A stretch of DNA of 64,000 nucleotides from Pseudomonadota bacterium (lineage in GTDB: Bacteria > Pseudomonadota > Gammaproteobacteria > Burkholderiales > Burkholderiaceae_C). The notes beneath the pieces are model-generated. The model was not told the DNA's origin. It worked only from the letters and a program-made list of their open reading frames with translations, and ran no database searches. This document shows, piece by piece, positions 17,151 through 39,949 of this stretch. Within the stretch, counting starts at the first letter, position 1; each line of letters starts with the position of its first letter. The position numbers and the translations under genes were made by a program. The stretch is from NCBI GenBank assembly GCA_020161775.1, contig JAIUOW010000019.1, positions 36,702-100,701 of the forward strand. The letters are read 5' to 3'.

Positions 17151-18863
17151 TCAGGCCAGCCCTGGATTGCCTGCCATGCCTGGCAGCTCGGGGTTGTTGA
17201 GCTTCAGGGGCTTGACCACGGGGTTGGCCTTGAGCCAGGTCTCCACCACGTCCCAGACGGGCGGCCCGGCGTTCTTGCTGGCTTCGTTCACGGGCGCCCA
17301 GCCTGCGACCTTGTAGGTTTTGCCGGCTTCAATGGGCTGGCCGTTCAGCCGCATGTTCTGGATGCGGTTGCCCATGCGGGCCGTGGCATCGCAGGTGTAG
17401 CTCATGCCGCCCACGCGCACCATGTCACCGCCTTGCTGGTAATACGGATCGGGGTTGAACAGGTTGTCAGCCACGTCTTCCAGCACGGTCTTGATCGTCT
17501 CTCCGCTCATGTCGGTCAGCGTGGTCCAGGGGTAGGTGATGGCCGTCTGGTCCATGACGTGTTCGCGCGTAATGGCCTGGCCCGGCAGCAGCGACGTGCC
17601 CCAGCGAAAGCCGGGCGAGAACGCGATCTGGGCACCGCGCACGTCCATCATGGCGTTGAGCACCAGCTGGTCAAACGTGCCATTGAAGTTGCCGCGCCGG
17701 TACAGCAGGCCTTCGGTGGTAGCGAGCTTTTCCTCAAGCTTGCCCTTGTACGGCGCGCGCACCCTGTCGATCAGCGCGGCCATCTCGCGGTCCGCTGGCA
17801 GCAGGTTGGCAAACACGGGCAGCAGGCGGTAGCTGAAGCCCGCGACCTTGCCGCTTTTCACATCGAGGTCCAGCACGCCCAGGAATTTTCCATTGCTGCC
17901 TGCGTTGGTCACCACGGTCTGGCCGCCGGGGTTCTTCACCACCACGGGCACCGGAACGCCATCATGCGTATGGCCACCCAGGATGGCGTCGATGCCCGAC
18001 ACGCGCGACGCCAGCTTCAGGTCCACGTCCATGCCGTTGTGGCTGAGCAGCACGACGGCCTGCGCACCCTTGGCACGGGCCTCGTTCACCACGTCCTGCA
18101 TTTCCTTTTCCTGGATGCCGAACGTCCAGTTGGGCACCAGCCAGGAAGGGTTGGCGATCGGCGTGTACGGAAAGGCCTGCCCCACGATGGCCACCGGCAC
18201 ACCATTCATCTCGCGAATCACATAGGGCTTGAAGACCGGGTCTTCGAAGTCTTTGGTCTTGACGTTCTGCGCGATGAAGTCGATCTTGCCCAGGCCCTTG
18301 TCCACCAGTTCCTTTACGCGCGATTCGCCGTAGGTGAATTCCCAATGCGCGGTCATCACGTCCACGCCCAGCAGCCTGCAGGCGTCCACCATGTCCTGGC
18401 CCTGGGTCCACAGTGCCGTGGCGCTGCCTTGCCAGGTATCGCCACCGTCCAGCAGCAAGGCGCCGGGGCGCGACGCCTTGAGGTTCTTCACCAGCGCGGC
18501 CAGGTGTGCAAAGCCGCCCACCTTGCCGTACTGCCGCGCCGCCCGCTCGAAGTCAAGAAAGGTGAAGGCATGCGCCTCGGGTGAGCCCGCCTTGATGGCG
18601 GCGGCCTTCAGCAGGTGTTCACCCACCAGGTGTGGCAGCTGGCCGCGCATGCTGCCCACGCCCAGGTTGACCGATGGCTCGCGGAAGTACATGGGCAGCA
18701 GCTGCGCATGGCAGTCTGTCATGTGCAGCAGGTGCACATTGCCCGTGCGCGGCAGGTTGTAGAGCTGGGCGGCCTGCTGGGCGGACGCGTCACGGGCCAG
18801 CGGGAAACCCGAGGCCATGGCCGCCGCCAGCACGCTCGCGAATTCGCGGCGGCTGAGGTTCAT
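17151..18863 (-). CDS. soxB: SoxB, thiosulfohydrolase
   Basis: SoxB hydrolyses the terminal sulfone group from SoxY-bound cysteine-S-thiosulfonate in the periplasm. The 570-aa protein starts with a twin-arginine signal (NLSRREFASVLAAAMASG). It shows the dimetal 5'-nucleotidase-like motifs MTDCHAQL, LLDGGDTWQGSATALW, LLSHNGMDVDLK and GGHTHDGVPVP. The last is preceded by the SoxB-typical AHWEFTYGE. It is the last gene of the canonical minus-strand sox operon, 29 bp after soxX. Confidence 0.97.
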   Translation of the reverse strand: MNLSRREFASVLAAAMASGFPLARDASAQQAAQLYNLPRTGNVHLLHMTDCHAQLLPMYFREPSVNLGVGSMRGQLPHLVGEHLLKAAAIKAGSPEAHAFTFLDFERAARQYGKVGGFAHLAALVKNLKASRPGALLLDGGDTWQGSATALWTQGQDMVDACRLLGVDVMTAHWEFTYGESRVKELVDKGLGKIDFIAQNVKTKDFEDPVFKPYVIREMNGVPVAIVGQAFPYTPIANPSWLVPNWTFGIQEKEMQDVVNEARAKGAQAVVLLSHNGMDVDLKLASRVSGIDAILGGHTHDGVPVPVVVKNPGGQTVVTNAGSNGKFLGVLDLDVKSGKVAGFSYRLLPVFANLLPADREMAALIDRVRAPYKGKLEEKLATTEGLLYRRGNFNGTFDQLVLNAMMDVRGAQIAFSPGFRWGTSLLPGQAITREHVMDQTAITYPWTTLTDMSGETIKTVLEDVADNLFNPDPYYQQGGDMVRVGGMSYTCDATARMGNRIQNMRLNGQPIEAGKTYKVAGWAPVNEASKNAGPPVWDVVETWLKANPVVKPLKLNNPELPGMAGNPGLA

Positions 18864-18892
18864 GGGTGGTGAGGGCCTGGTGGGCCCTGGCG

Positions 18893-19537
18893 TTACTGGT
18901 TGACGGGGGATTTCGGATCCAGCAGCAGCGCCATCACGTCACGCATCTGCTTTTCCGTCAGGATGCCCGCATGGCCAAACCGCGGCATGCCCGAGCATGC
19001 GTTGTAGGCCTTGGCATTCCACAGCTTGCCCCATGTGTATTCCACGATCGGCTTGCTCGCGGCGGCAGCCGGATCGGTCACGCCGCGGATCTTGCCGTAG
19101 TTGTACAGGCTGGGGCCGATGGAGCCGAACGACAGCTCGGCCTTGCCGATCTGGTGGCAGTTGTAGCAGCTGCCGCCGTTGGCGGAGCCGGGCGCGTCGG
19201 TCCAGGTCATGCCACGGCCGTTCTGGGCGATTTTCTCGCCTTCGGCCCAGTCGCCGATGAACTTGCCGTCGGACGGCATCTTCACGGTCTTGAGGTTGGC
19301 CGCCTCAATGGCCTTGGCCTGCGCCGCGGGCAGGTCCTTGCCTTCGGATTCGGAGCAGGCCTTGTTGGATGCATCCTGGTCCAGCCAGCTCAGCTTGGCT
19401 ATGCCCTGCTCGCGAAACGAGGACTTCATCACGCGCTGGGTGGCTTCGTCCACCTGTTGCTGCGTCGGAGCGGCGGCGCAGCCCGCCAGCAGCACGGCCA
19501 GCGCCGTCAGGCCCATGTGTTTGCTTGTCTTGCTCAT
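18893..19537 (-). CDS. soxX: SoxX, c-type cytochrome of the SoxXA complex
   Basis: The ATG at 19537 has AGGGAC upstream and gives a 214-aa protein with a lipobox (LLAGC, Cys20), unlike many soluble SoxX proteins. A ~90-residue N-terminal extension precedes one heme motif CYNCH (Cys124-His128). The distal methionine is likely in ACSGMPRFGHAG. SoxXA joins thiosulfate to SoxY. It lies 20 bp after soxA. Confidence 0.93.
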   Translation of the reverse strand: MSKTSKHMGLTALAVLLAGCAAAPTQQQVDEATQRVMKSSFREQGIAKLSWLDQDASNKACSESEGKDLPAAQAKAIEAANLKTVKMPSDGKFIGDWAEGEKIAQNGRGMTWTDAPGSANGGSCYNCHQIGKAELSFGSIGPSLYNYGKIRGVTDPAAAASKPIVEYTWGKLWNAKAYNACSGMPRFGHAGILTEKQMRDVMALLLDPKSPVNQ

Positions 19538-19557
19538 GTCGGTGTCCCTGCTGGTTG

Positions 19558-20355
19558 TCAACGCTTGAGTGCCGGGGCAATGGACTTGCCGCCCTTGCCG
19601 TTCACGCCCATGTACACGCCCAGCGCAATGGTCGCATCGGACGCAAAGCCGGGGAACGGAAAACGTTGCTGGCGGTAGCAGTCGTTCAGGCGGCGCTGCA
19701 TGCCCCACAGGTCACCGCTGGACACACGGTAGGCCGGCCAGGCACCAAAGCCGTTGCCGGCACCGGGATTCCTGGTGAGGTTGGGCAGGTCCTGCAGGCG
19801 CACACGCTTGTTGTCCTCACCATGGCAGGACGCACAAGAGAAGTCGTACGGGCCGCCACGCATGTAGAACACCTTCTTGCCCACCTCGTACATGAGCTTT
19901 TCCTGCGGGTGCGACTGCGGCAGGTTGAACGCCATGTCGCGCGATTCGGCGGAAATGTAGGCGACCAGCGACTCCAGCGTCTTCTGCTCGCCCGCGCCAA
20001 AACGCGTCCTGGCGATTTCGGCAGCGTTGAAACCCTGCAGGGTCTCCATGCAGGTCAGAAGCCGCGACTCCAGGTCCTGCACGCGCTGCGTGTCGGCAAA
20101 GTAACGGGGCAACTCGACAAAGGCGCCCTTGACCACGCCTGGACCCTTGCCCAGATCGCATTTTTCGAGCGTGGCTTTCTTCGGGCCGCGGGCTTCTTTC
20201 CAGAGCGCCTCGCCCTTGGCCTCGAACAGCTCGGCGGGGTTGCCGTCCGCCAGCATGGCGCGGTACTCGGCAATGCCATCCGCGGTGCTTTTCTGCGCCG
20301 CTGCGGGAAGGGACACAACGGCCAGCGCCGCCAGCCCGATCAGGCTCCATTTCAT
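19558..20355 (-). CDS. soxA: SoxA, mono-heme type c-type cytochrome of the SoxXA complex
   Basis: The 265-aa protein has a Sec signal (MKWSLIGLAALAVVSLPAAAQ). It carries one heme motif, CASCH (Cys174-His178). The position of the N-terminal heme of diheme SoxA holds two lone cysteines (Cys66, Cys102), as in mono-heme SoxA. The active-site cysteine that ligates heme as a persulfide is Cys226 in RRLNDCYRQQRFP. SoxXA catalyses oxidative coupling of thiosulfate to the SoxY cysteine. Compare the diheme paralogue at 39176-39949. Confidence 0.95.
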   Translation of the reverse strand: MKWSLIGLAALAVVSLPAAAQKSTADGIAEYRAMLADGNPAELFEAKGEALWKEARGPKKATLEKCDLGKGPGVVKGAFVELPRYFADTQRVQDLESRLLTCMETLQGFNAAEIARTRFGAGEQKTLESLVAYISAESRDMAFNLPQSHPQEKLMYEVGKKVFYMRGGPYDFSCASCHGEDNKRVRLQDLPNLTRNPGAGNGFGAWPAYRVSSGDLWGMQRRLNDCYRQQRFPFPGFASDATIALGVYMGVNGKGGKSIAPALKR

Positions 20356-20395
20356 CGCGATCTCCTCGTTGTTGTATCGGGCGGCCTGCCCGTGA

Positions 20396-20707
20396 TCAGG
20401 CCACAACCGCTTCGTCGGTGCGCTTGTCGCCCTTGCTGTCCACCCACGTTACCACGACCTTGTCGCCCGCCTTGCCACCCTTGAAGGAGAACTGCGTGAA
20501 GGGGTTCTTGGACACCGCCGGACCCCACTGGGCGCTCATGACGGTCTTGCCGTTGTGGGTGGCGCTGATGGTCTGGATGAACCACGCCGGGATGATCTTG
20601 CCCGCGCCATCGCGGCGCTGGCCGCTTTCCATTTCGTGGCTCACAAGCACACGGACCGTGACCTTGTCCCCTTGCGCCTGGGCGCGAATTCGCATCGGAT
20701 CTGCCAT
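20396..20707 (-). CDS. soxZ: SoxZ, partner of the SoxY sulfur carrier
   Basis: The 103-aa protein (start MADPMRIRAQAQGDKVTVRVLVSHEMESGQ at the second ATG) has no signal peptide and is normally exported bound to SoxY through the SoxY Tat signal. It has the SoxZ immunoglobulin-like fold signature IPAWFIQTISATHNGKTVMSAQWGPAVSKNPF. It follows soxY by about 10 bp. Confidence 0.95.
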   Translation of the reverse strand: MADPMRIRAQAQGDKVTVRVLVSHEMESGQRRDGAGKIIPAWFIQTISATHNGKTVMSAQWGPAVSKNPFTQFSFKGGKAGDKVVVTWVDSKGDKRTDEAVVA

Positions 20708-20717
20708 GCTGTGCTCC

Positions 20718-21194
20718 TTAACCGCCGCATCCGCCAAGGGTCACCTTGACCTCTTTGACGCTGTAGAAAAACTTGTCGCCGGCCTTGGCCAGCGCATACA
20801 CATTGGACGACTGGCCCATCTTCACGTTGGTCGAGACGTTGGGGTCGGTCCCCGCGGGCACGTCGAACACTGCCGCCAGCGCGTTGGGGTTCTTTTCAAC
20901 CACAAAGGCGATCTGGGTGGTGTTGGGGATATTGCTGGTGGCACCGACGCGAACGACCGCGCCGTTTTCGGCGATCTCGGGCGCGGCCAGGATCAGGTCC
21001 TTGCTTTCGGTGGCGGCAGCGGCACCGCCCAGCGCCTTGACCGCTTCGGCCAGGGTCTTGGCTTCAAACGCGGCCTTGTTCCAGGCCGGCGCGGCCTGTG
21101 CACGCGCGGCGGCGGGCACCAGCCCGGCCGCAGCGGCCAGCCCGAGCGCCGCAGCGCCCGAACCTTTGTGCATGAATTCTCGACGTTCCATCAT
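20718..21194 (-). CDS. soxY: SoxY, sulfur-substrate carrier protein
   Basis: The 158-aa protein has a Tat signal (ERREFMHKGSGAAALGLAAAAG). It ends in the classical swinging-arm motif VTLGGCGG, whose cysteine carries the sulfur intermediates through the Sox cycle. Upstream, between soxD and soxY (21195-21292), lies TGTATGAATACA at 21223-21234, an interrupted palindrome that could be an operator or internal promoter element for soxYZAXB. Confidence 0.97.
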   Translation of the reverse strand: MMERREFMHKGSGAAALGLAAAAGLVPAAARAQAAPAWNKAAFEAKTLAEAVKALGGAAAATESKDLILAAPEIAENGAVVRVGATSNIPNTTQIAFVVEKNPNALAAVFDVPAGTDPNVSTNVKMGQSSNVYALAKAGDKFFYSVKEVKVTLGGCGG

Positions 21195-21292
21195 GGGACT
21201 CCTTCAGATTGACGAACCGGATTGTATGAATACACAGCATCGGGCGGAATGGGCATTACCCTGCGTCCCTTTGTTGTATGGGGATGATGCTG

Positions 21293-22378
21293 TCATGGCG
21301 TGGCCCCCTGGGCCAGCCACCGGGCCACGCGCTGCGCGTCAGCTTCGCTGATGGACTGGGCTGGCATCGGGATGCTGCCCCACACACCCTGCCCTCCAGC
21401 GCGGATTTTGCCGGCCAGATAGGCCGCGGCATCGGCCTGCGCCTTGTATTTTCCAGCGACCTCACGCCAGGACGGCCCCACCAGCTTGCTGTCCGCGGCG
21501 TGGCAGGCCACGCACACGTTCTTTTGCAGAAGCGGCATCACGTCGCCCGAGCGCAAGGCGCCCTCTGCGCCCGCGGGTGCCGCCGCTGGAACGGACACCG
21601 TTGCTGCCTGGGGGGCGGCAGCAGCCACCGTGGCGGCGCCGCGCGTGGGGCCAATGCCGCGCGTCTGGTCGGCCAGGTTGCCATGGGCATTGCGCGCGTG
21701 GTCAGGAATCAGGCTGGCCACGCGCGGCTCGGTGCGGCAATTGCGCATGCAGGCCGACCCCTGGACGTCGGGTTTGCGCGTGCCGCCGAATTCATTGCCC
21801 GGCCACATGCCATGCGCCGTGGTGATGCCGTTGCGGTTGGGCATGCGCTTTTGAACGTCGGCCATGTTGGCCTGGGACAGCGTGAAGTCGTCCGGCACCA
21901 CATTGCCCAGGTTGAGCATGTAGGCGAGCACGGCGTAAATATCGTCCGCCGCCAGCGACTTGGGGGCCGTCCAGGGCATGGCGCGGTTGATGTAGTCCCA
22001 CAGCGTGGACAGCTGCGAGGCTTTCATCATCATGGTGCGCGACGGCGTGTTGGTGCCCAGCTGGAGGCTGGCCACGCGCCCCGTCTGCACGTCTTTGGCC
22101 GTCGTATGGCCGATCAGCGGCGTGAAAACATCATTGCTTTCACCGAAGGCGCCATGGCAGGACGCACATTGCGCCTCCCACACCTGTTCGCCGCGCCGCA
22201 CGCTGCCCTGCCCCGGCGGCAGGCCCTTGAAATCCGGGCGCACGTCGATGTCCCAGGCTTTCACCTCGGCTGGCGTGGCGGCGCGCCCGACGCCGTCGTA
22301 GCGGGGTGCCTGGGCCACCGCCAGCGTGGTGGCCAGCGCCATGGCCAGCGTCAAGGCGAGCTTAGGAAAGCTGCACAT
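21293..22378 (-). CDS. soxD: SoxD, diheme c-type cytochrome of sulfane dehydrogenase
   Basis: The 361-aa periplasmic protein has a Sec signal (ALTLAMALATTLAVAQ) and two heme motifs, CASCH near residue 72 and CVACH near residue 293, separated by an Ala/Pro linker. SoxD takes electrons from the SoxC molybdenum centre while the sulfane sulfur on SoxY is oxidised. The gene overlaps the end of soxC by 17 bp, showing tight coupling. SoxCD presence implies full thiosulfate oxidation to sulfate without sulfur globules. Confidence 0.94.
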   Translation of the reverse strand: MCSFPKLALTLAMALATTLAVAQAPRYDGVGRAATPAEVKAWDIDVRPDFKGLPPGQGSVRRGEQVWEAQCASCHGAFGESNDVFTPLIGHTTAKDVQTGRVASLQLGTNTPSRTMMMKASQLSTLWDYINRAMPWTAPKSLAADDIYAVLAYMLNLGNVVPDDFTLSQANMADVQKRMPNRNGITTAHGMWPGNEFGGTRKPDVQGSACMRNCRTEPRVASLIPDHARNAHGNLADQTRGIGPTRGAATVAAAAPQAATVSVPAAAPAGAEGALRSGDVMPLLQKNVCVACHAADSKLVGPSWREVAGKYKAQADAAAYLAGKIRAGGQGVWGSIPMPAQSISEADAQRVARWLAQGATP

Positions 22379-23699
22379 TGCGCACCTCGCCGCTTTCTTC
22401 CACCAGCCAGGTCTGGATGGCGTTGTTGTGATAGATGTTGCGCGTGCCGCGCACCCGGCGCAGTTCGGCGTAGGTCGGCTGGATGTGGCCTGTTTCGTCG
22501 GTGGCGCGGCTCATCAGCAAGGCGGGCTTGCCGTCCCAGGCCCAGTCGCAGTTGAAGCGTGTCAGGCACTTGGACAGCACCGGGCCTTCCAGGCGCGCGG
22601 GCTTCCAGTTGCGCCCGCCGTCGGCGGACACATCCACCCGGCGCACCTTGCCACGGCCGCTCCAGGCCAGGCCGGTGATGTTGGTAAAGCCCTTGTCCAG
22701 CAGCATCTGGCCGCCGCTGGGCGAGGTGATGACGCTTTTGACTTCCTGGATGCTGGTGTACTGGCGATGCATGCCATCGGGCATGAGGTCCATGTAATGG
22801 ATGGATTCGTCCTTCGTGCCGTAGGCCATGTCGCCCAGCTCGATGCGCCGCAGGTACTTGACCCAGCTCACGCCCTGCACGCCTGGCACCACCAGGCGCA
22901 GCGGGTAGCCGTTCTCGGGCCGCAGCATCTCGCCGTTCTGGCCATAGGCAACCAGGACTTCGCCACTCATGACCAGGCTCATGGGGATGGTGCGCGTCAT
23001 GCCTGAGCCGTCGGCGCCCTCGGCCAGCACGAATTTGCCGCGCTTGAGGTCGGCGCCACACATCTCCAGCAGCGTGCGCAGCGGCACGCCGGTGAACTCG
23101 CTGCATGAAATCATGCCGTGCGTGTACTGCACCGTGGGCACCGCCACGTTGCCCCACTCCATGCCGGTATTGGCACCGCATTCAATGAAATGCATGCGGC
23201 TGACCGGCGGCAGGCGCATGAGCTCGTCCATGGTGAAGACCATGGGCCGCTTGAGCATCTTTTCATCACTGCCGTTGAGCATGAGCCGGTGCTGGCTGGG
23301 ATCGATGTCCCACCAGCCTTGGTGGTGCCGCTCAAAGTGCAGCCCGCTGGGCGTGATGATGCCGAACAGCCCCTGCAGCGGGCAGAAGCTCACGCTGGAC
23401 TGGCTGACCCGCGTGAGGCCCGGGCTTTCGCGGCGCTGAAGGTTCTTCTCCCACACGCTGGGCACGCCATAGCCACGCGCAGCCACGGCCTGGCCCAGCG
23501 ACTTGCTGTGGCCGGGCAGGTTCAGGATGGCGGGATCGCCCGCGGCGGCCGGTGCAGGCGCCGTCTGCGCCGCTACCGCACCTGCCGCCGACGCCAGCGC
23601 CGCGGCCAGGAAACTGCGACGGCCCGCGTACACATCACGGATCTGCTCGCGGTTGAGGAAGTTTTCCGGCGCGCGCCGGACAAAGCGGTTGAATCCCAT
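22362..23699 (-). CDS. soxC: SoxC, molybdenum subunit of sulfane dehydrogenase
   Basis: The 445-aa sulfite-oxidase-family protein has a Tat signal (GRRSFLAAALASAAGAVAAQ) some 25 residues in. The molybdenum-ligating cysteine is in MHFIECGANTGMEWGN. A C-terminal dimerisation domain follows (KVRRVDVSADGGRNWKPARLEGP). With SoxD it oxidises SoxY-bound sulfane sulfur. It begins 2 bp after the ArsR-type regulator gene and overlaps soxD. Confidence 0.94.
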   Translation of the reverse strand: MGFNRFVRRAPENFLNREQIRDVYAGRRSFLAAALASAAGAVAAQTAPAPAAAGDPAILNLPGHSKSLGQAVAARGYGVPSVWEKNLQRRESPGLTRVSQSSVSFCPLQGLFGIITPSGLHFERHHQGWWDIDPSQHRLMLNGSDEKMLKRPMVFTMDELMRLPPVSRMHFIECGANTGMEWGNVAVPTVQYTHGMISCSEFTGVPLRTLLEMCGADLKRGKFVLAEGADGSGMTRTIPMSLVMSGEVLVAYGQNGEMLRPENGYPLRLVVPGVQGVSWVKYLRRIELGDMAYGTKDESIHYMDLMPDGMHRQYTSIQEVKSVITSPSGGQMLLDKGFTNITGLAWSGRGKVRRVDVSADGGRNWKPARLEGPVLSKCLTRFNCDWAWDGKPALLMSRATDETGHIQPTYAELRRVRGTRNIYHNNAIQTWLVEESGEVRNVQLS

Positions 23700-23701
23700 G
23701 G

Positions 23702-24076
23702 TCAGGCCACCGCCTTTCCCAGCAGCCGCTCGGACGGCGGCAGCTGCAAGGGCTCATCCACCTCGATGGCGATCTGCGTGCAGACCGCCCGGCACAGCGT
23801 GACAGCCTTTTCGCTCTGCACCCGGTAGATGACCTGGGTGCCGTCCTTTCGCTTGGCCAGCACACCGCTGCGGTACAGCACGTTCAGGTGCTGCGACAGG
23901 TTGGGCTGGGTGGTGTCGATCTTTTCCAGCAGCTGCGTCACGGAGCGCTCGCCGTCGCACAGGGCGCTCAGGATGCGCAGGCGCATGGGCGTTGCCAGCA
24001 CGCCAAACAGTTCAGCCGCCAGCTCGAACACGCGGCCGGAGCCGGCATCTTCATCGGCGTGGATCATGGGTTCCAT
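23702..24076 (-). CDS. soxR: ArsR-family regulator of the sox operon (SoxR/BigR-like)
   Basis: The 124-aa ArsR/SmtB winged-helix protein has the recognition helix region TTQPNLSQHLNVLYRSGVL. Cysteines lie at positions 40 (LCDGERS), 95 and 99 (LCRAVC). Cys40 and one of the later cysteines are placed much as in BigR/SqrR persulfide sensors, so thiol-based sensing of sulfide or polysulfide is likely, as described for SoxR of other sulfur oxidisers. As the first gene of the sox operon it probably autorepresses. Confidence 0.8.
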   Translation of the reverse strand: MEPMIHADEDAGSGRVFELAAELFGVLATPMRLRILSALCDGERSVTQLLEKIDTTQPNLSQHLNVLYRSGVLAKRKDGTQVIYRVQSEKAVTLCRAVCTQIAIEVDEPLQLPPSERLLGKAVA

Positions 24077-35247: not shown

Positions 35248-35751
35248 ATGGCGAGGCTCAATGTCAACGGCGCAGTGCGCGATTTCGAGGCAGAGGGCGA
35301 CACGCCGCTGCTGTGGGTGCTGCGTGAGCAGCTGGGCCTGACGGGCACCAAGTACGGCTGCGGCATCGCCGCCTGCGGTGCCTGCACGGTGCACATCGAC
35401 GGCGTGCCCACGCGCAGCTGCGTGCGCCCCGTGTCCACCGTCGGCCCCAACGAAAAGATCGTGACGATCGAGGGCTTGTCGCCCGATGGATCACACCCGG
35501 TGCAAAAAGCCTGGGTCGCGCTGGACGTGCCGCAATGCGGTTACTGCCAGTGCGGCATGGTCATGGCGGCCACGGCCCTGCTGCGCGACAAGCCGCAGCC
35601 CACCGACCGCGACATCGACGAGGCCATCACCAACATCTGCCGCTGCGGTACCTACAACCGCATCCGCGCTGCGATCAAGGTGGTCGCGGCCGGTGGCAAC
35701 ACCAAAACGGCCGGCCTGGCCATCCAGCACACCGACGGGAGCACCACATGA
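35248..35751 (+). CDS. iorA: Isoquinoline 1-oxidoreductase-type small subunit (2x [2Fe-2S])
   Basis: The 167-aa protein is the iron-sulfur subunit of a molybdenum hydroxylase of the xanthine oxidase family. The N-terminal plant-type cluster uses Cys38, Cys43, Cys46 and Cys58 ([18 protein letters not shown]). The second cluster uses Cys97, Cys100, Cys131 and Cys133 ([10 protein letters not shown] and [10 protein letters not shown]). It moves electrons from the molybdenum subunit to an external acceptor. AGGAGC precedes the ATG. It overlaps iorB in an ATGA, and starts a six-gene overlapping cluster. Confidence 0.92.
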
Positions 35752-37928
35752 GCGCCCTCACCGTTTCCCGCCGCACGTTCCTGTCCACCGCCGCGGCCGG
35801 TGGCCTGGTGGTGGGCTTTCATGTGCCGTTGGCTGGCGTAGCGGCCGCACAAGGCGCGGCGCCCGAGGTGAACGCCTGGGTGGTGGTGCGCCCGGACGAC
35901 ACCGTGGTCATCCGCATCGCCCGCTCCGAGATGGGCCAGGGCACGCTGACCGGCCTGGCCCAGCTGGTGGCCGAGGAGCTGGAGTGCAACTGGGCCAGGG
36001 TCACCACCGAATACCCCACGCCGGGCCAGAACCTGGCGCGCAACCGCGCCTGGGGCAACTTCTCCACCGGCGGCAGCCGCGGCATCCGCGAATCGCACGA
36101 CTACGTGCGCAAGGGCGGCGCCACGGCCCGCATGATGCTCGTGCAGGCCGCCGCGGACGAATGGAAAGTGCCGGCCGCCGAATGCCGCGCGGCCAACAGC
36201 GTCATCACCCACACGCCCACGGGCCGCACCACCACCTACGGCAAGGTCGCCGCGGCGGCGGGCAAGCTTGCGCCGCCCGCCGACGTGAAGCTGAAAGACC
36301 CGAAGGACTGGAAGCTGGTCGGCAAGCGCCTCGCCCGCCTGGACACCATCGAGAAGGTCACCGGCAAGCAGATCTATGGCGCCGACCTGGTTCTGCCCGG
36401 CATGCTGAACGCCGCCATCAAGGACTGTCCGGTGTTTGGCGGCAAGCTCAAGAGCTTCAACGCCGCCGCGATCGAGAAACGCCCCGGCGTGAAGAAGGTG
36501 GTGCGCGTGGGCGACAGCGCCGTGGCTGTGGTGGCCGACACCTGGTGGCGCGCCAAGACAGCGCTGGACGCGCTGCCCATTGAATGGGACCTGGGCGAAC
36601 ACGCCAAGGCCTCCAGCGAAGAGTTTGCCAAGGTGCTGAAGGCAGCGCTGGACGCACCCGAGGCCGCCGTGGGCAACAGCAATGGCGATGCCAGGGCAGC
36701 GCTGGCGTCGGCGGGGCGCAAGGTGGAGGCGGTGTACTCGTACCCGCACCAGAACCACGCGACCATGGAGCCGATGAACGCCACTGCGAGATACACGCCC
36801 GAGCGCTGCGAAGTCTGGACCCCCACGCAGAACGGCGAAGCCGCACTGGCCGCTGCGTCCGAGGCCTCCGGCCTGCCCGCCGCGAAGTGCGAGGTCTACA
36901 AGCTGCACCTGGGCGGCGGTTTTGGCCGGCGCGGCGCGGTGCACGACTGGGTGCGCCAGGCGGTGGAGATCGCCAAGCAGATGCCGGGCGTGCCGGTCAA
37001 GCTGCTGTGGAGCCGCGAAGAGGACATGCTGCACGGGCGTTACCACCCCGTCACGCAATGCAAGCTCACGGCCGGGCTGGACGCGCAGAACAACATCACG
37101 GCGCTGCACATGCGCATCGCGGGCCAGTCCATCCTGGCCGGCGTGTTCCCGCAGAACATCCGCAATGGCGTGGACCCGGTGCAGTTTCAGGGCCTGAACG
37201 CGGGCGGCCCAGAAGCCGCCATCGGCTACAGCTTTCCCAACCTGCTGGTGGACCATGCCATGCGCAACCCGCATGTGCCGCCGGGCTTCTGGCGTGGCGT
37301 GAACCTGAACCAGAACACCATCTATCTGGAATGTTTCCTGGACGAAGTGGCCGCTGCCACCCGGCAGGACCCGCTGGCGCTGCGCCGAAAGCTCATGGAG
37401 AAGCACCCCAAGCACCTGGCCGTGCTGAACGCCGTGGCCGAGCGCGTGAAATGGGGCACACCGGCGCCCGACGTGAACGGGCAGAAGGTATTTCGCGGCC
37501 TGGCGCAGACACACGGTTTTGGCAGCTATGTGGCGGCCTGTGCCGAGGTGTCCGTCAGCGCCGACGGCCAGCTCACGGTGCACCGCATCGTGGCCGCCAC
37601 CGACCCTGGTTACGCCGTGAACCCGCAACAGATCGAGGCGCAGGTGGAAGGCTCGTTCGTCTACGGCCTGTCGGCCGCGCTGTTTGGTTCGTGCACCGTC
37701 AAGGACGGACGCATCGAACAGGACAACTTCAGCACCTACCCTGTGATGCACATGCGTCACATGCCCAAGGTGGAAACCGTCCTGGTGCCGTCCGGCGGCT
37801 TCTGGGGCGGTGTGGGCGAACCGACGATTGCCGTGGCGGCGCCGGCGGTGCTGAACGCCATCTACGCCGCCACGGGCAAACGCATCCGCGACCTGCCGCT
37901 GAAGGACCAGAACCTGAAGCGGGCCTGA
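35748..37928 (+). CDS. iorB: Isoquinoline 1-oxidoreductase-type molybdenum subunit
   Basis: The 726-aa protein is the large subunit of a Mo-cytosine-dinucleotide-type hydroxylase. It has a Tat signal ([18 protein letters not shown]), so the enzyme is periplasmic. Family features include [49 protein letters not shown] and, near the end, [19 protein letters not shown] with the probable catalytic glutamate. Family members hydroxylate N-heterocycles or aldehydes; this substrate is unknown. Downstream, 11 bp away, starts a SoxX-like gene, which is not the usual neighbour. Confidence 0.9.
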
Positions 37929-37939
37929 CCCGCCAACCA

Positions 37940-38392
37940 ATGCCCATGCAACGTGCTGCTTGCCGCGCCGCCTTTGCCATCGCCTTGCCGCTGCTCGCGC
38001 GCGGGGTGGCGGCGCAGGCGGTGAACTGGCAGGCCACGGATGGCGGCATCGCGCAGGCGCTGAGCGCCGAGCCCGGCGACGCGGCACGTGGCCGCGCCAT
38101 CGTGGCCAGCCGCCAGGTAGGGCTGTGCCTGCTGTGCCATACCGGACCGTTCCCCGAGGAGCGGTTTCAAGGCAACCTGGCGCCCCCGCTGGACGGGGCG
38201 GGCAAGCGCTACACCGCGGCGCAGTTGCGGCTGCGCATTGCCGACTCGCGCCGCATCAACCCGGAATCGCTCATGCCGCCGTACCACCACACGGGCGGGC
38301 TCATGCAGGTGGGCCGCGCGTTTGCCGGGCAACCTGTGCTGACGGCCCAGCAGGTCGAGGACGTAGTGGCCTACCTGGTGACACTGCAATGA
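37940..38392 (+). CDS. SoxX-like c-type cytochrome (paralogue)
   Basis: The 150-aa protein has a signal peptide (AFAIALPLLARGVAAQ) and one heme motif CLLCH (Cys63-His67). Strong SoxX signatures follow: FQGNLAPPLDGAGKRYTAAQLRLRI, INPESLMPPYHHTGG with the likely distal Met112, and QPVLTAQQVEDVVAYLVTL. It is shorter than the lipoprotein SoxX at 18893-19537 and has no N-terminal extension. It might serve as the electron acceptor of IorAB, as partner of the downstream SoxA-like protein, or both. The stop overlaps the SoxY-like start. Confidence 0.88.
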   Translation: MPMQRAACRAAFAIALPLLARGVAAQAVNWQATDGGIAQALSAEPGDAARGRAIVASRQVGLCLLCHTGPFPEERFQGNLAPPLDGAGKRYTAAQLRLRIADSRRINPESLMPPYHHTGGLMQVGRAFAGQPVLTAQQVEDVVAYLVTLQ

Positions 38393-38859
38393 CGGCAACA
38401 CGACGCCAGGCTTTGTCGGCCGGTGCCGCGCTGGCGGGCCTGGTGCTGGTGCGCCCTGCCCTGGCGCAGGGTACAGACCCAGGTGGCGAGCTCGCCGCTG
38501 CGGTGCGCCAGTTCACCGGCGGCGCGCCGGTGCAAAACGGCCGCATCAAGCTCGACATTGCGCAACTCGTGGACAACGGCAACACGGTGCCGATGACCGT
38601 GTCGGTCGATTCACCCATGACGGCCGCCGACCATGTGGTGGCCCTGGCCGTCTTCAACGAACGCAACCCGCAGCGCGAGGTGATCAAAGCCACCCTGGGC
38701 CCACGCGCCGGCAAGGCGCAGGTCGCTACGCGCATCCGCCTGGCCACGTCGCAGAAGCTCATGGCCGTGGCGCGCATGTCGGACGGCTCGTACTGGCAGC
38801 ACACGGCCGATGTGGTCGTGACGCTCGCTGCGTGCATTGAGGGAGATGTGGTCCAGTGA
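38389..38859 (+). CDS. SoxY-like carrier protein with altered C-terminal arm
   Basis: The 156-aa protein begins with a Tat-type signal (TRRQALSAGAALAGLVLV) and has the SoxY immunoglobulin-like fold (NTVPMTVSVDSPMTAADHVVALAVFNERNPQREV). The classical C-terminal GGCGG is replaced by VTLAACIEGDVVQ: the carrier cysteine (Cys149) is kept, but the glycines are gone and seven residues follow it. The tail codons GAGGGAGA double as the ribosome binding site of the next gene. It overlaps both neighbours by 4 bp. Confidence 0.85.
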   Translation: MTATRRQALSAGAALAGLVLVRPALAQGTDPGGELAAAVRQFTGGAPVQNGRIKLDIAQLVDNGNTVPMTVSVDSPMTAADHVVALAVFNERNPQREVIKATLGPRAGKAQVATRIRLATSQKLMAVARMSDGSYWQHTADVVVTLAACIEGDVVQ

Positions 38860-39179
38860 GCACCCGCACCCTCATCAACATGCCCAAAACCGCGCGGCGC
38901 GGCGAGGTGATCGAAATCCGCGTGACGATCGGCCACCCGATGGAGACCGGCTACCGGCCGGGCGCGGATGGCAAGCGTCTGCCGCGCGACATCATCCAGC
39001 GGTTCAGCTGCCGCTATGACGGCGAAACAGTTTTTTCTGCCACGCTGTACCCCGCCATCTCAGCCAACCCGTACATTGCGTTTCACACGGTTGCCACGCA
39101 GAGCGGCACCATGGAGTTCCGCTGGGAGGGCGACAATGGCTTTGCCCACAGCGAGCGGGTGGCACTCCACGTGACATGA
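38856..39179 (+). CDS. SoxZ-like carrier partner (paralogue)
   Basis: The gene starts at a GTG overlapping the SoxY-like stop. The 107-aa protein has the SoxZ pattern RGEVIEIRVTIGHPMETGYRPG, LPRDIIQRFSCRYDGETVFSATLYPAISANPYIAF and ends in a short beta strand. It has no signal peptide, as expected for a SoxZ exported with SoxY. It is clearly diverged from the SoxZ at 20396-20707. Overlap with both neighbours suggests fixed stoichiometry. Confidence 0.88.
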   Translation: MSTRTLINMPKTARRGEVIEIRVTIGHPMETGYRPGADGKRLPRDIIQRFSCRYDGETVFSATLYPAISANPYIAFHTVATQSGTMEFRWEGDNGFAHSERVALHVT

Positions 39180-39949
39180 GCCGCGGGCATTTCCAGACGA
39201 TGGCCCTGGCCATGCTGCTGGTCGTGGCTGGGGCCAACGCCCAACCCGCGAAGGATGCGCGCCGCTCCGGCTTTGACGACATGCGCCCCGCCACGCAGGC
39301 GATGCAACGCGACGACAGCCAGAATCCCGCCATGCTCTGGGTGGCCGAGGGCGAAGCCCTGTTCCAGCGCGCGCCGCGGGCGCAAAGCCAGGCCTGCATG
39401 GCCTGCCACGCCGCCGCCAGCCTGCGCGGCGTGGCAGCGCGTTACCCGGCGTTCGACACTGTGCTGGGCCGGCCGGTCAGCCTGTCACACCGCATCAACC
39501 TGTGCCGCCAGCGCCACCAGCAGGCCGACCCACTGGCGCCCGACAGCCAGCCGCTGCTGGCACTGGAAAGCTGGGTGGCCCACCAATCGCGCGGCGCCCC
39601 CATCGCGCCACCGGCAGACCCGCGCCTGGTGCCATTTCGCGCACGCGGCGAAAAGCTGTTTCAAACGCGCATCGGCCAGCTCAACCTGTCGTGCGCGCAA
39701 TGCCACGACGCGCGCGCCGGCCAGCGCCTGGGCGGCAGCACCATCCCCCAGGGCCACCCCACCGGCTACCCGCTGTACAGGCTGGAATGGCAGGCGGTGG
39801 GCTCCCTGCCCCGCCGACTGCGCGGCTGCATGACCGGCGTGCGTGCCGAGCCGCTGGCAGCACACAGCGTGGAAATGGCCGAGCTGGAGCTGTACCTGGC
39901 CACGCGCGCCATGGGCTTGCCGCTGGAGACGCCTGGCGTACGGCCTTGA
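39176..39949 (+). CDS. Diheme SoxA-like c-type cytochrome (paralogue)
   Basis: The 257-aa protein has a signal peptide (MALAMLLVVAGANAQ) and two heme motifs, CMACH (Cys74-His78) and CAQCH (Cys173-His177). The two distal cysteine ligands typical of diheme SoxA are in HRINLCRQRHQ (Cys110) and RRLRGCMTG (Cys218), so the catalytic cysteine-ligated heme appears intact. The canonical SoxA in this window is mono-heme, so this gene is not a recent duplicate of it. It ends the iorAB-soxXYZA-like cluster. Confidence 0.87.
   Translation: MSRGHFQTMALAMLLVVAGANAQPAKDARRSGFDDMRPATQAMQRDDSQNPAMLWVAEGEALFQRAPRAQSQACMACHAAASLRGVAARYPAFDTVLGRPVSLSHRINLCRQRHQQADPLAPDSQPLLALESWVAHQSRGAPIAPPADPRLVPFRARGEKLFQTRIGQLNLSCAQCHDARAGQRLGGSTIPQGHPTGYPLYRLEWQAVGSLPRRLRGCMTGVRAEPLAAHSVEMAELELYLATRAMGLPLETPGVRP

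Follow-up and report, generated by a model that had tools for sequence, protein, structure and literature searches.

We determined that six genes, iorA, iorB, soxX, soxY, soxZ and soxA, at positions 35,248 to 39,949 of a 64,000-nucleotide stretch of contig JAIUOW010000019.1 from a Burkholderiales bacterium (assembly GCA_020161775.1; this whole stretch is referred to as the window), form a conserved unit in which a molybdenum hydroxylase is encoded together with a SoxXYZA set and without SoxB. The best explanation for iorAB-soxXYZA is a self-contained periplasmic oxidation module, and very probably a dedicated one that works independently of SoxB. The cluster suggests an as yet uncharacterised way in which sulfur-linked molecules are handled outside the cell membrane; a carrier-bound substrate for the molybdenum enzyme is plausible.

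All six genes lie on the forward strand, in an order confirmed by the coordinates of the open reading frames (ORFs). The iorA-like gene (35,248–35,751) encodes the [2Fe-2S] subunit (PF00111, Fer2; PF01799, Fer2_2) and the iorB-like gene (35,748–37,928) the molybdopterin subunit (PF02738, MoCoBD_1; PF20256, MoCoBD_2), with Glu691 in the motif GGVGE. The pair thus has the two molybdopterin domains and the [2Fe-2S] subunit of the xanthine oxidase family, with all four Pfam domains above cut-off, and Pfam detected no cytochrome domain in either protein. They are followed by a SoxX-like mono-haem cytochrome c (37,940–38,392; TIGR04485, 85.8 bits, cut-off 61) with a CLLCH motif and a methionine as the likely ligand; a SoxY-like carrier (38,389–38,859; TIGR04487, 210 bits, cut-off 172; PF13501) with an AACIE arm, not GGCGG, around Cys149; a SoxZ-like carrier partner with a GTG start (38,856–39,179; PF08770; TIGR04490, 78.6 bits, cut-off 76); and a SoxA-like di-haem cytochrome c with an axial or catalytic-type Cys218 (39,176–39,949; TIGR04484, 208 bits, cut-off 110). 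Overlaps of 4 bp occur at iorA/iorB, soxX/soxY, soxY/soxZ and soxZ/soxA, and 11 bp separate iorB from soxX. An initial annotation, made from the letters alone, had given this order and spacing exactly, had placed the carrier cysteine of SoxY correctly at position 149, and had named the genes as Pfam and NCBIfam also identify them. It had further assigned secretion signals to the exported members. Judged by eye on the translations, IorB and SoxY do begin with twin-arginine-type starts and SoxX and SoxA with hydrophobic stretches; IorA and SoxZ show no such start and would be exported together with their partners.

To assess conservation, an alignment of 17 SoxY sequences was used to scan genome contigs, and the best 80 of 330 confirmed relatives, together with three plasmid loci, gave a set of 83 loci (numbered with the prefix L). 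The six genes occur in the same order, on one strand and within 7 kilobases (kb), in 72 of these loci, from Beta- and Alphaproteobacteria. Seven of the 11 exceptions are cut at contig ends (L068, L077, L089, L102, L110, L125 and L136), three are Methylobacterium loci without an adjacent soxA (L106, L117 and L126), and one contains soxYZA alone (L129). Consistent with the initial description of the cluster as lacking SoxB, no match to soxB, soxC or soxD was obtained at an E value of 1e-5 in any of the 83 loci, some of which extend less than 10 kb per side.

Because these loci had been chosen by SoxY similarity, linkage was also tested from both the SoxY and the IorB side in 399 Burkholderiales genomes. 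IorB was found within 8 kb for 24 of 26 SoxY proteins above the TIGR04487 cut-off and for 39 of 49 scoring 112–171 bits. Conversely, such a SoxY lies within 8 kb of 19 of 21 IorB proteins having at least 66% identity, 21 of 32 having 57–65% and 25 of 37 having 46–56%, and of none of the 16 typed rows below 46%. A unique arrangement or chance neighbours are ruled out by the 72 ordered loci and this two-sided linkage, and the gene order is clearly kept beyond this genome. Furthermore, pairwise distances of IorB and SoxY correlate (r 0.78, the species tree being ignored) over 83 loci having all six proteins, a set that differs in part from the 83 fetched loci. The TIGR04487 cut-off is exceeded in 25 of the 399 genomes of the order and in 15 of 398 genomes of a phylum sample that shares genomes with it.

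The module does not include SoxB, which is also missing from the assemblies of some of its hosts. We searched for true SoxB in 76 genomes, namely 32 with a SoxY above the TIGR04487 cut-off and 44 named genomes holding a fetched cluster. It scored above cut-off in 54 of them: in 23 of the 44 and in 31 of the 32, the latter being a group in which iorAB beside SoxY is not demonstrated for every member: L009 and ten phylum-sample pieces stop within the flavocytochrome gene, and the piece taken from G382 (L245) contains soxXYZA but no iorAB. Identical positions were returned for G354 and G770, and apparently one genome was counted twice. The remaining 21 named genomes have no true SoxB, in the sense of absence from an assembly whose completeness is not stated. 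Each of these 21 has exactly one SoxA, and 15 of them exactly one SoxY, the other six carrying a second SoxY-type match. In the three Methylobacterium genomes (L106, L117, L126) the single SoxA sits on a different contig from the cluster.

A gene for flavocytochrome c sulfide dehydrogenase (FCSD) lies inside the cluster in 51 of the 83 loci and in 36 of the 44 named genomes. Among the latter, 21 lack SoxB but have flavocytochrome c in the cluster, both are present in 15, eight have SoxB without a flavocytochrome c gene in the cluster, and none lacks both (Fisher p 0.004, kinship ignored). The FCSD domains PF21706 and PF09242 were present in all three of the relatives' proteins tested, and two conserved cysteines, which we take to be the catalytic, redox-active pair, in 50 of 51. 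There is no such gene in the window. The genome to which the window belongs has one match to the flavoprotein, on contig C29 (7,043–7,243; PF09242, 83.6 bits), apart from both of its sox loci.

The Sox proteins of the cluster are not recent copies of those in the canonical sox operon that the window also contains. Trees were computed with only those rows that were labelled as linked to the molybdenum enzyme (Mo-linked) or to SoxB, excluding near-copies and the unlabelled rows (58 of 173 for SoxA, 69 of 211 for SoxY). A 99% branch separates 74 Mo-linked from 23 SoxB-linked SoxY proteins. The SoxA tree requires two label changes, six SoxB-linked SoxA proteins being grouped among the Mo-linked ones; the SoxA of the cluster falls in a Mo-linked set of 32 rows (98%) and the thiosulfate SoxA of the window in a distant set of 15 rows (100%). 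A recent duplication of the window's own operon is ruled out by these trees, which strongly indicate that the module is old, and the Sox copies stand apart as a clade of their own in SoxY. Together with the order kept in 72 loci, this lends good support to the separate, dedicated pathway that the initial annotation had proposed.

The residues on which Sox chemistry depends are conserved. In the Mo-linked rows, in which some genomes are present with two overlapping loci, both CXXCH motifs of SoxA and its axial-type Cys110 and Cys218 are kept in 86 of 86, the haem cysteines and methionine of SoxX in 106 of 106, and Cys149 of SoxY in 113 of 113. The closest solved structures are 1h31_A and 2c1d_A for the SoxA of the window and 2c1d_B and 1h31_B for its SoxX. 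Cys218 of SoxA aligns with the RFRGC cysteine of 1h31_A, presumably the ligand of the catalytic haem, and SoxXA thus appears to retain a cysteine-ligated catalytic haem. In known Sox systems, SoxXA links a sulfur compound to the cysteine of SoxY by oxidation, and the alignments show SoxXA and SoxY to retain the cysteines and haem ligands that those systems use for this step.

What has changed is the surrounding of the SoxY cysteine. The arm of the Mo-linked proteins is mostly (A/S)AC-x-(E/D) instead of GGCGG, with glutamate or aspartate two residues after the cysteine in 109 of 113 rows, and the SoxY of the window ends in AACIEGDVVQ. Against TIGR04488, the model of true SoxY, it scores 92 bits, below the cut-off of 125; the SoxY of the canonical operon shows the reverse pattern. 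The acidic residue following the cysteine would probably fit thiosulfate poorly.

On the side of the molybdenum enzyme, Glu691 (GGxGE) of IorB is invariant in 43 of 43 aligned rows and aligns with E730 of 8gy3_C, and we take it to be the catalytic glutamate of the xanthine oxidase family. This chain, the large subunit of the Gluconobacter membrane-bound aldehyde dehydrogenase, is the nearest solved relative of IorB (by sequence, 250 bits; by fold, template modelling (TM) score 0.71). When 113 linked and 19 unlinked IorB rows were compared for residues shared by at least 93% of the former and no more than 35% of the latter, positions 430, 683 and 684 alone passed; all three are glycine in 103 linked and four unlinked rows, one of the linked rows being a distant paralogue (L060, 28% identity). 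Positions 683 and 684 precede Glu691 by eight and seven residues. On a tree of 76 IorB rows, however, the Gly-Gly trait takes just five changes, compared with eight for linkage, and a clade of 14 rows with aspartate at 430 and 684 (12 unlinked; two linked, L168 and L195) provides the bulk of the signal. With so few changes and most rows in one clade, we do not present these glycines as proof of co-adaptation, and this possible active-site signature is a hint only.

The retained Sox residues, the missing SoxB and the molybdenum hydroxylase partner are most simply explained by a carrier that takes its bound, thiol-type substrate to IorAB. The substrate would probably be an organic thiol and not thiosulfate; SoxXA would couple it to the SoxY residue Cys149, two electrons being released, and SoxYZ would deliver it to IorAB. 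There the hydroxylase would use water to hydroxylate a carbon atom in the bound compound, freeing an oxidised organic product and leaving sulfane sulfur or sulfide, which flavocytochrome c or the ordinary Sox system of the host would clear. All electrons would pass to cytochrome c; candidate acceptors of those from IorAB are SoxX, SoxA or the small cytochrome beside flavocytochrome c. We assign a probability of roughly 0.4 to this mechanism, in which IorAB oxidises a SoxYZ-bound substrate.

Four loci in which iorAB, or iorB, stands with soxYZ and no adjacent soxXA (L192, L193, L194 and L248) suggest that SoxYZ is the direct partner of IorAB. Of the two readings offered by the initial annotation, we therefore favour the one in which a SoxYZ carrier holds an intermediate for the molybdenum enzyme, a reading compatible with the data, and consider the other, in which electrons of the hydroxylase enter the SoxXA cytochromes, the weaker. 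The genomes of L192–L194 have SoxA elsewhere, and no soxXA or flavocytochrome match was found at these three loci. The SoxY proteins of the four loci end in ACGG, GCGL, ACGD or ACIDES instead of AACIE.

Several observations weigh against a carrier-bound substrate. Aldehydes, N-heterocycles or CO are the usual substrates of the xanthine oxidase family, and no member with a carrier-bound thiol substrate is known to us. SoxXYZA sets occur without iorAB in the fetched stretch (L240–L245 and L251), standing alone in L242, L245 and L251, and close relatives of IorB occur without a linked SoxY (11 of 32 at 57–65% identity, 12 of 37 at 46–56%). SoxB is present in 23 of the 44 named cluster genomes and in the window's own. 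The glycine signal at G430, G683 and G684 falls mainly in one large clade of the IorB tree, and the loops at these positions have predicted local distance difference test (pLDDT) values below 50 in a model with a mean of 70. Finally, when 1341 predicted genes of the 83 loci were clustered, no catabolic gene recurred across lineages at a fixed place beside the core. Some neighbours are lineage-local, such as OmpW in Oxalobacteraceae (Pfam) and, by inspection, pyruvate dehydrogenase-type genes in Comamonadaceae; the others are transporter, sensor and chemotaxis genes of a general kind whose place varies. For this reason we rejected the flanking genes as a guide to the substrate.

The alternatives differ in what they make of SoxYZ. 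IorAB might attack a free sulfur-containing heterocycle or aldehyde and release sulfide, with flavocytochrome c and SoxXYZA only disposing of the sulfur. Such a two-step desulfurisation would agree with the presence of flavocytochrome c within the cluster in 36 of the 44 named genomes, would account for SoxB-less hosts having that enzyme, and fits the aldehyde dehydrogenase (8gy3) as nearest solved relative of IorB. However, mere disposal leaves unexplained why the SoxY arm was rebuilt, its cysteine being followed by an acidic residue in 109 of 113 rows; by analogy with known Sox chemistry the conjugate would probably stay unreleased without SoxB; and L192–L194 keep iorAB-soxYZ where neither soxXA nor flavocytochrome c was matched. 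We regard it as unlikely. If IorAB took the place of SoxCD as the sulfane dehydrogenase and SoxB were borrowed from the main operon, the module would be a variant pathway for thiosulfate or sulfite. This reading could draw on the SoxB found in 54 of the 76 genomes searched and on the intact key residues of SoxXA; with 21 of the 44 named genomes lacking true SoxB and the GGCGG arm replaced, it appears very unlikely. Bradyrhizobium diazoefficiens, which has two soxY homologues, is reported to need only soxY1 for thiosulfate oxidation (PMC5748708), and this also speaks against such a variant if soxY2 is of the AACIE type, as the presence of Bradyrhizobium loci among the SoxY relatives suggests.

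SoxYZ might instead serve the enzyme itself. Members of the xanthine oxidase family require a Mo=S ligand, and once IorAB is exported, this sulfido ligand could be restored by persulfidated SoxYZ, which SoxXA and flavocytochrome c would load. This requirement, and the fact that soxYZ stays beside IorAB even where soxXA is not adjacent, would suit such an upkeep of the cofactor; close IorB relatives without linked soxYZ do not, nor does the tendency of linkage to track residues next to the active-site glutamate, a signal that is itself weak on the tree. We consider it quite unlikely. Highly improbable, in our estimation, is a mere recruitment of SoxX and SoxA as cytochrome c acceptors of IorAB with soxYZ carried along: it would supply the cytochrome domain that IorA and IorB of the window lack, but would leave unexplained both the invariance of Cys149 in SoxY (113 of 113 rows) and Cys218 in SoxA (86 of 86) and the retention of soxYZ where soxXA is not adjacent.

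Extending the preferred reading of a SoxYZ-bound substrate, SoxYZ may be a carrier of the assembly-line type, to which SoxXA tethers an organic thiol by a disulfide for oxidation by the molybdenum hydroxylase, giving a SoxB-free breakdown of organosulfur compounds in the periplasm. SoxYZ would then be a general carrier, paired with IorAB here, with pyrroloquinoline quinone (PQQ) dehydrogenases elsewhere and perhaps with a methyltransferase-fold protein (L240, L241, L243 and L244). This wider proposal is doubtful. If the carrier model were true, organic substrates would be added to the repertoire of SoxYZ and a new type of reaction to that of molybdenum hydroxylases.

The module shares with the canonical SoxXA-SoxYZ-SoxB(-CD) system the families of SoxX, SoxA, SoxY and SoxZ, the haem and axial cysteines of SoxA, the haem and methionine of SoxX, and the C-terminal cysteine of SoxY; it differs in the absence of SoxB, SoxC and SoxD matches at the 83 loci, in its mostly (A/S)AC-x-(E/D) arm, in having a molybdenum hydroxylase in the operon and in lying on a separate side of the SoxY tree. 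NCBIfam had already separated this SoxY from true SoxY: the protein of the window is a member of TIGR04487, 'SoxY-related AACIE arm protein' (SoxY_para_1), whose title states no function. IorAB resembles the membrane-linked aldehyde dehydrogenases of the AldFGH type (8gy3) in the full-length similarity of IorB noted above and in its separate [2Fe-2S] subunit, with only 26% identity over the fold alignment. AldFGH possesses a cytochrome subunit, whose place is occupied here by the Sox genes.

Two papers mention SoxYZ-like genes adjoining those of PQQ-dependent enzymes (PMC12997753, PMC11582611). Likewise, the quinoprotein-dehydrogenase-associated SoxYZ-like carrier (TIGR04557), found for example in the ped cluster and others encoding a PQQ alcohol dehydrogenase, stands beside a periplasmic oxidoreductase; those systems have a fused SoxYZ, a SoxH-like hydrolase and a PQQ enzyme (PMC12997753). 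SoxY and SoxZ of the window score 51.7 and 41 bits against this family, both below its cut-off of 140. In SAR324, flavocytochrome c lies beside SoxYZ-like genes and other sox subunits were not found; the accessible part of that article reports no molybdenum hydroxylase beside them and mentions isoquinoline 1-oxidoreductase merely as present in the genomes (PMC4782131).

We found no description of the iorAB-soxXYZA combination among the papers listed in a literature search that covered few subscription journals, nor the wording 'AACIE arm' or 'SoxY-related' in the literature searched. Catabolism of ergothioneine or thio-heterocycles was considered as a source of the substrate and set aside, no link having been found among the papers listed. 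In Advenella, SoxYZ is reported to be up 7.6-fold on mercaptosuccinate, and the accessible portions of the mercaptosuccinate and thiodipropionate literature contain nothing that ties this induction to an IorAB cluster.

Sox genes are widely taken as a sign of thiosulfate oxidation, and the module shows that SoxXYZA sets can serve something else. Counts of soxA, soxX or soxY in heterotrophs such as Duganella, Noviherbaspirillum, Methylobacterium and Falsiroseomonas may thus be misread. The module also offers a testable function for a named but unexplained family of AACIE-arm proteins, and the single SoxA in each of the 21 SoxB-less genomes would make gene removal there clean.

The canonical operon of the window, used for comparison only and lying outside the module, was found on the reverse strand at 17,151–23,699 with the order soxC-D-Y-Z-A-X-B; it looks complete, as the initial annotation had stated in placing a full Sox operon at 17.1–24.1 kb. 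Its SoxY matches TIGR04488 at 158 bits, its SoxA and SoxX exceed their cut-offs, and its SoxB, the copy that the window's genome has, scores 885 bits; SoxZ, SoxD and SoxC were named by inspection. An ORF for an ArsR/SoxR-like regulator (23,702–24,076, by inspection) adjoins it.

Some of the SoxXYZA sets found without iorAB or soxB are accompanied by two further genes, one of the methyltransferase fold with a twin-arginine-like start and one of the metallo-beta-lactamase fold (L240, 5,329–8,987; L241, 4,418–8,061; L243, 386–4,145; L244, 3,140–7,064, where the soxX frame was not called). PF13847 and PF00753, respectively, were matched in L240 and L243, the only pairs tested. In genome G097, a copy of IorB (L254) and a lone soxXYZA (L251) lie on separate contigs.

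Relatives of IorAB without a Sox match in the stretch taken were found at L170–L187, some of them on short contigs. Two loci of genus g41, from small-genome relatives (L174, 5,990–9,404; L186, 6,390–9,293), have a second IorAB copy with no Sox match nearby; the membrane gene after it is ferric-reductase-like (PF01794, tested in L174), and we take it to resemble MsrQ. At L182 (5,726–9,590), L185 (5,733–11,605) and L187 (5,524–9,187), IorAB relatives without a Sox match lie near sulfur-linked genes, encoding a YeeE/YedE-type transporter half (PF20398, PF04143) and ChrB-rhodanese proteins (PF00581 with PF09828). At L175 (3,358–11,970), an IorAB pair stands between formate-dehydrogenase-type genes and two selA-/selB-like genes, as judged by inspection. 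Finally, in 11 Bradyrhizobium-type loci (L108, L111, L118, L120, L124, L125, L127, L131, L132, L133 and L135) an amidohydrolase gene, presumably resembling enamidase, follows just downstream of the cluster, and in ten of them a gene for an FAD/NAD oxidoreductase lies between the two; both assignments come from Pfam.

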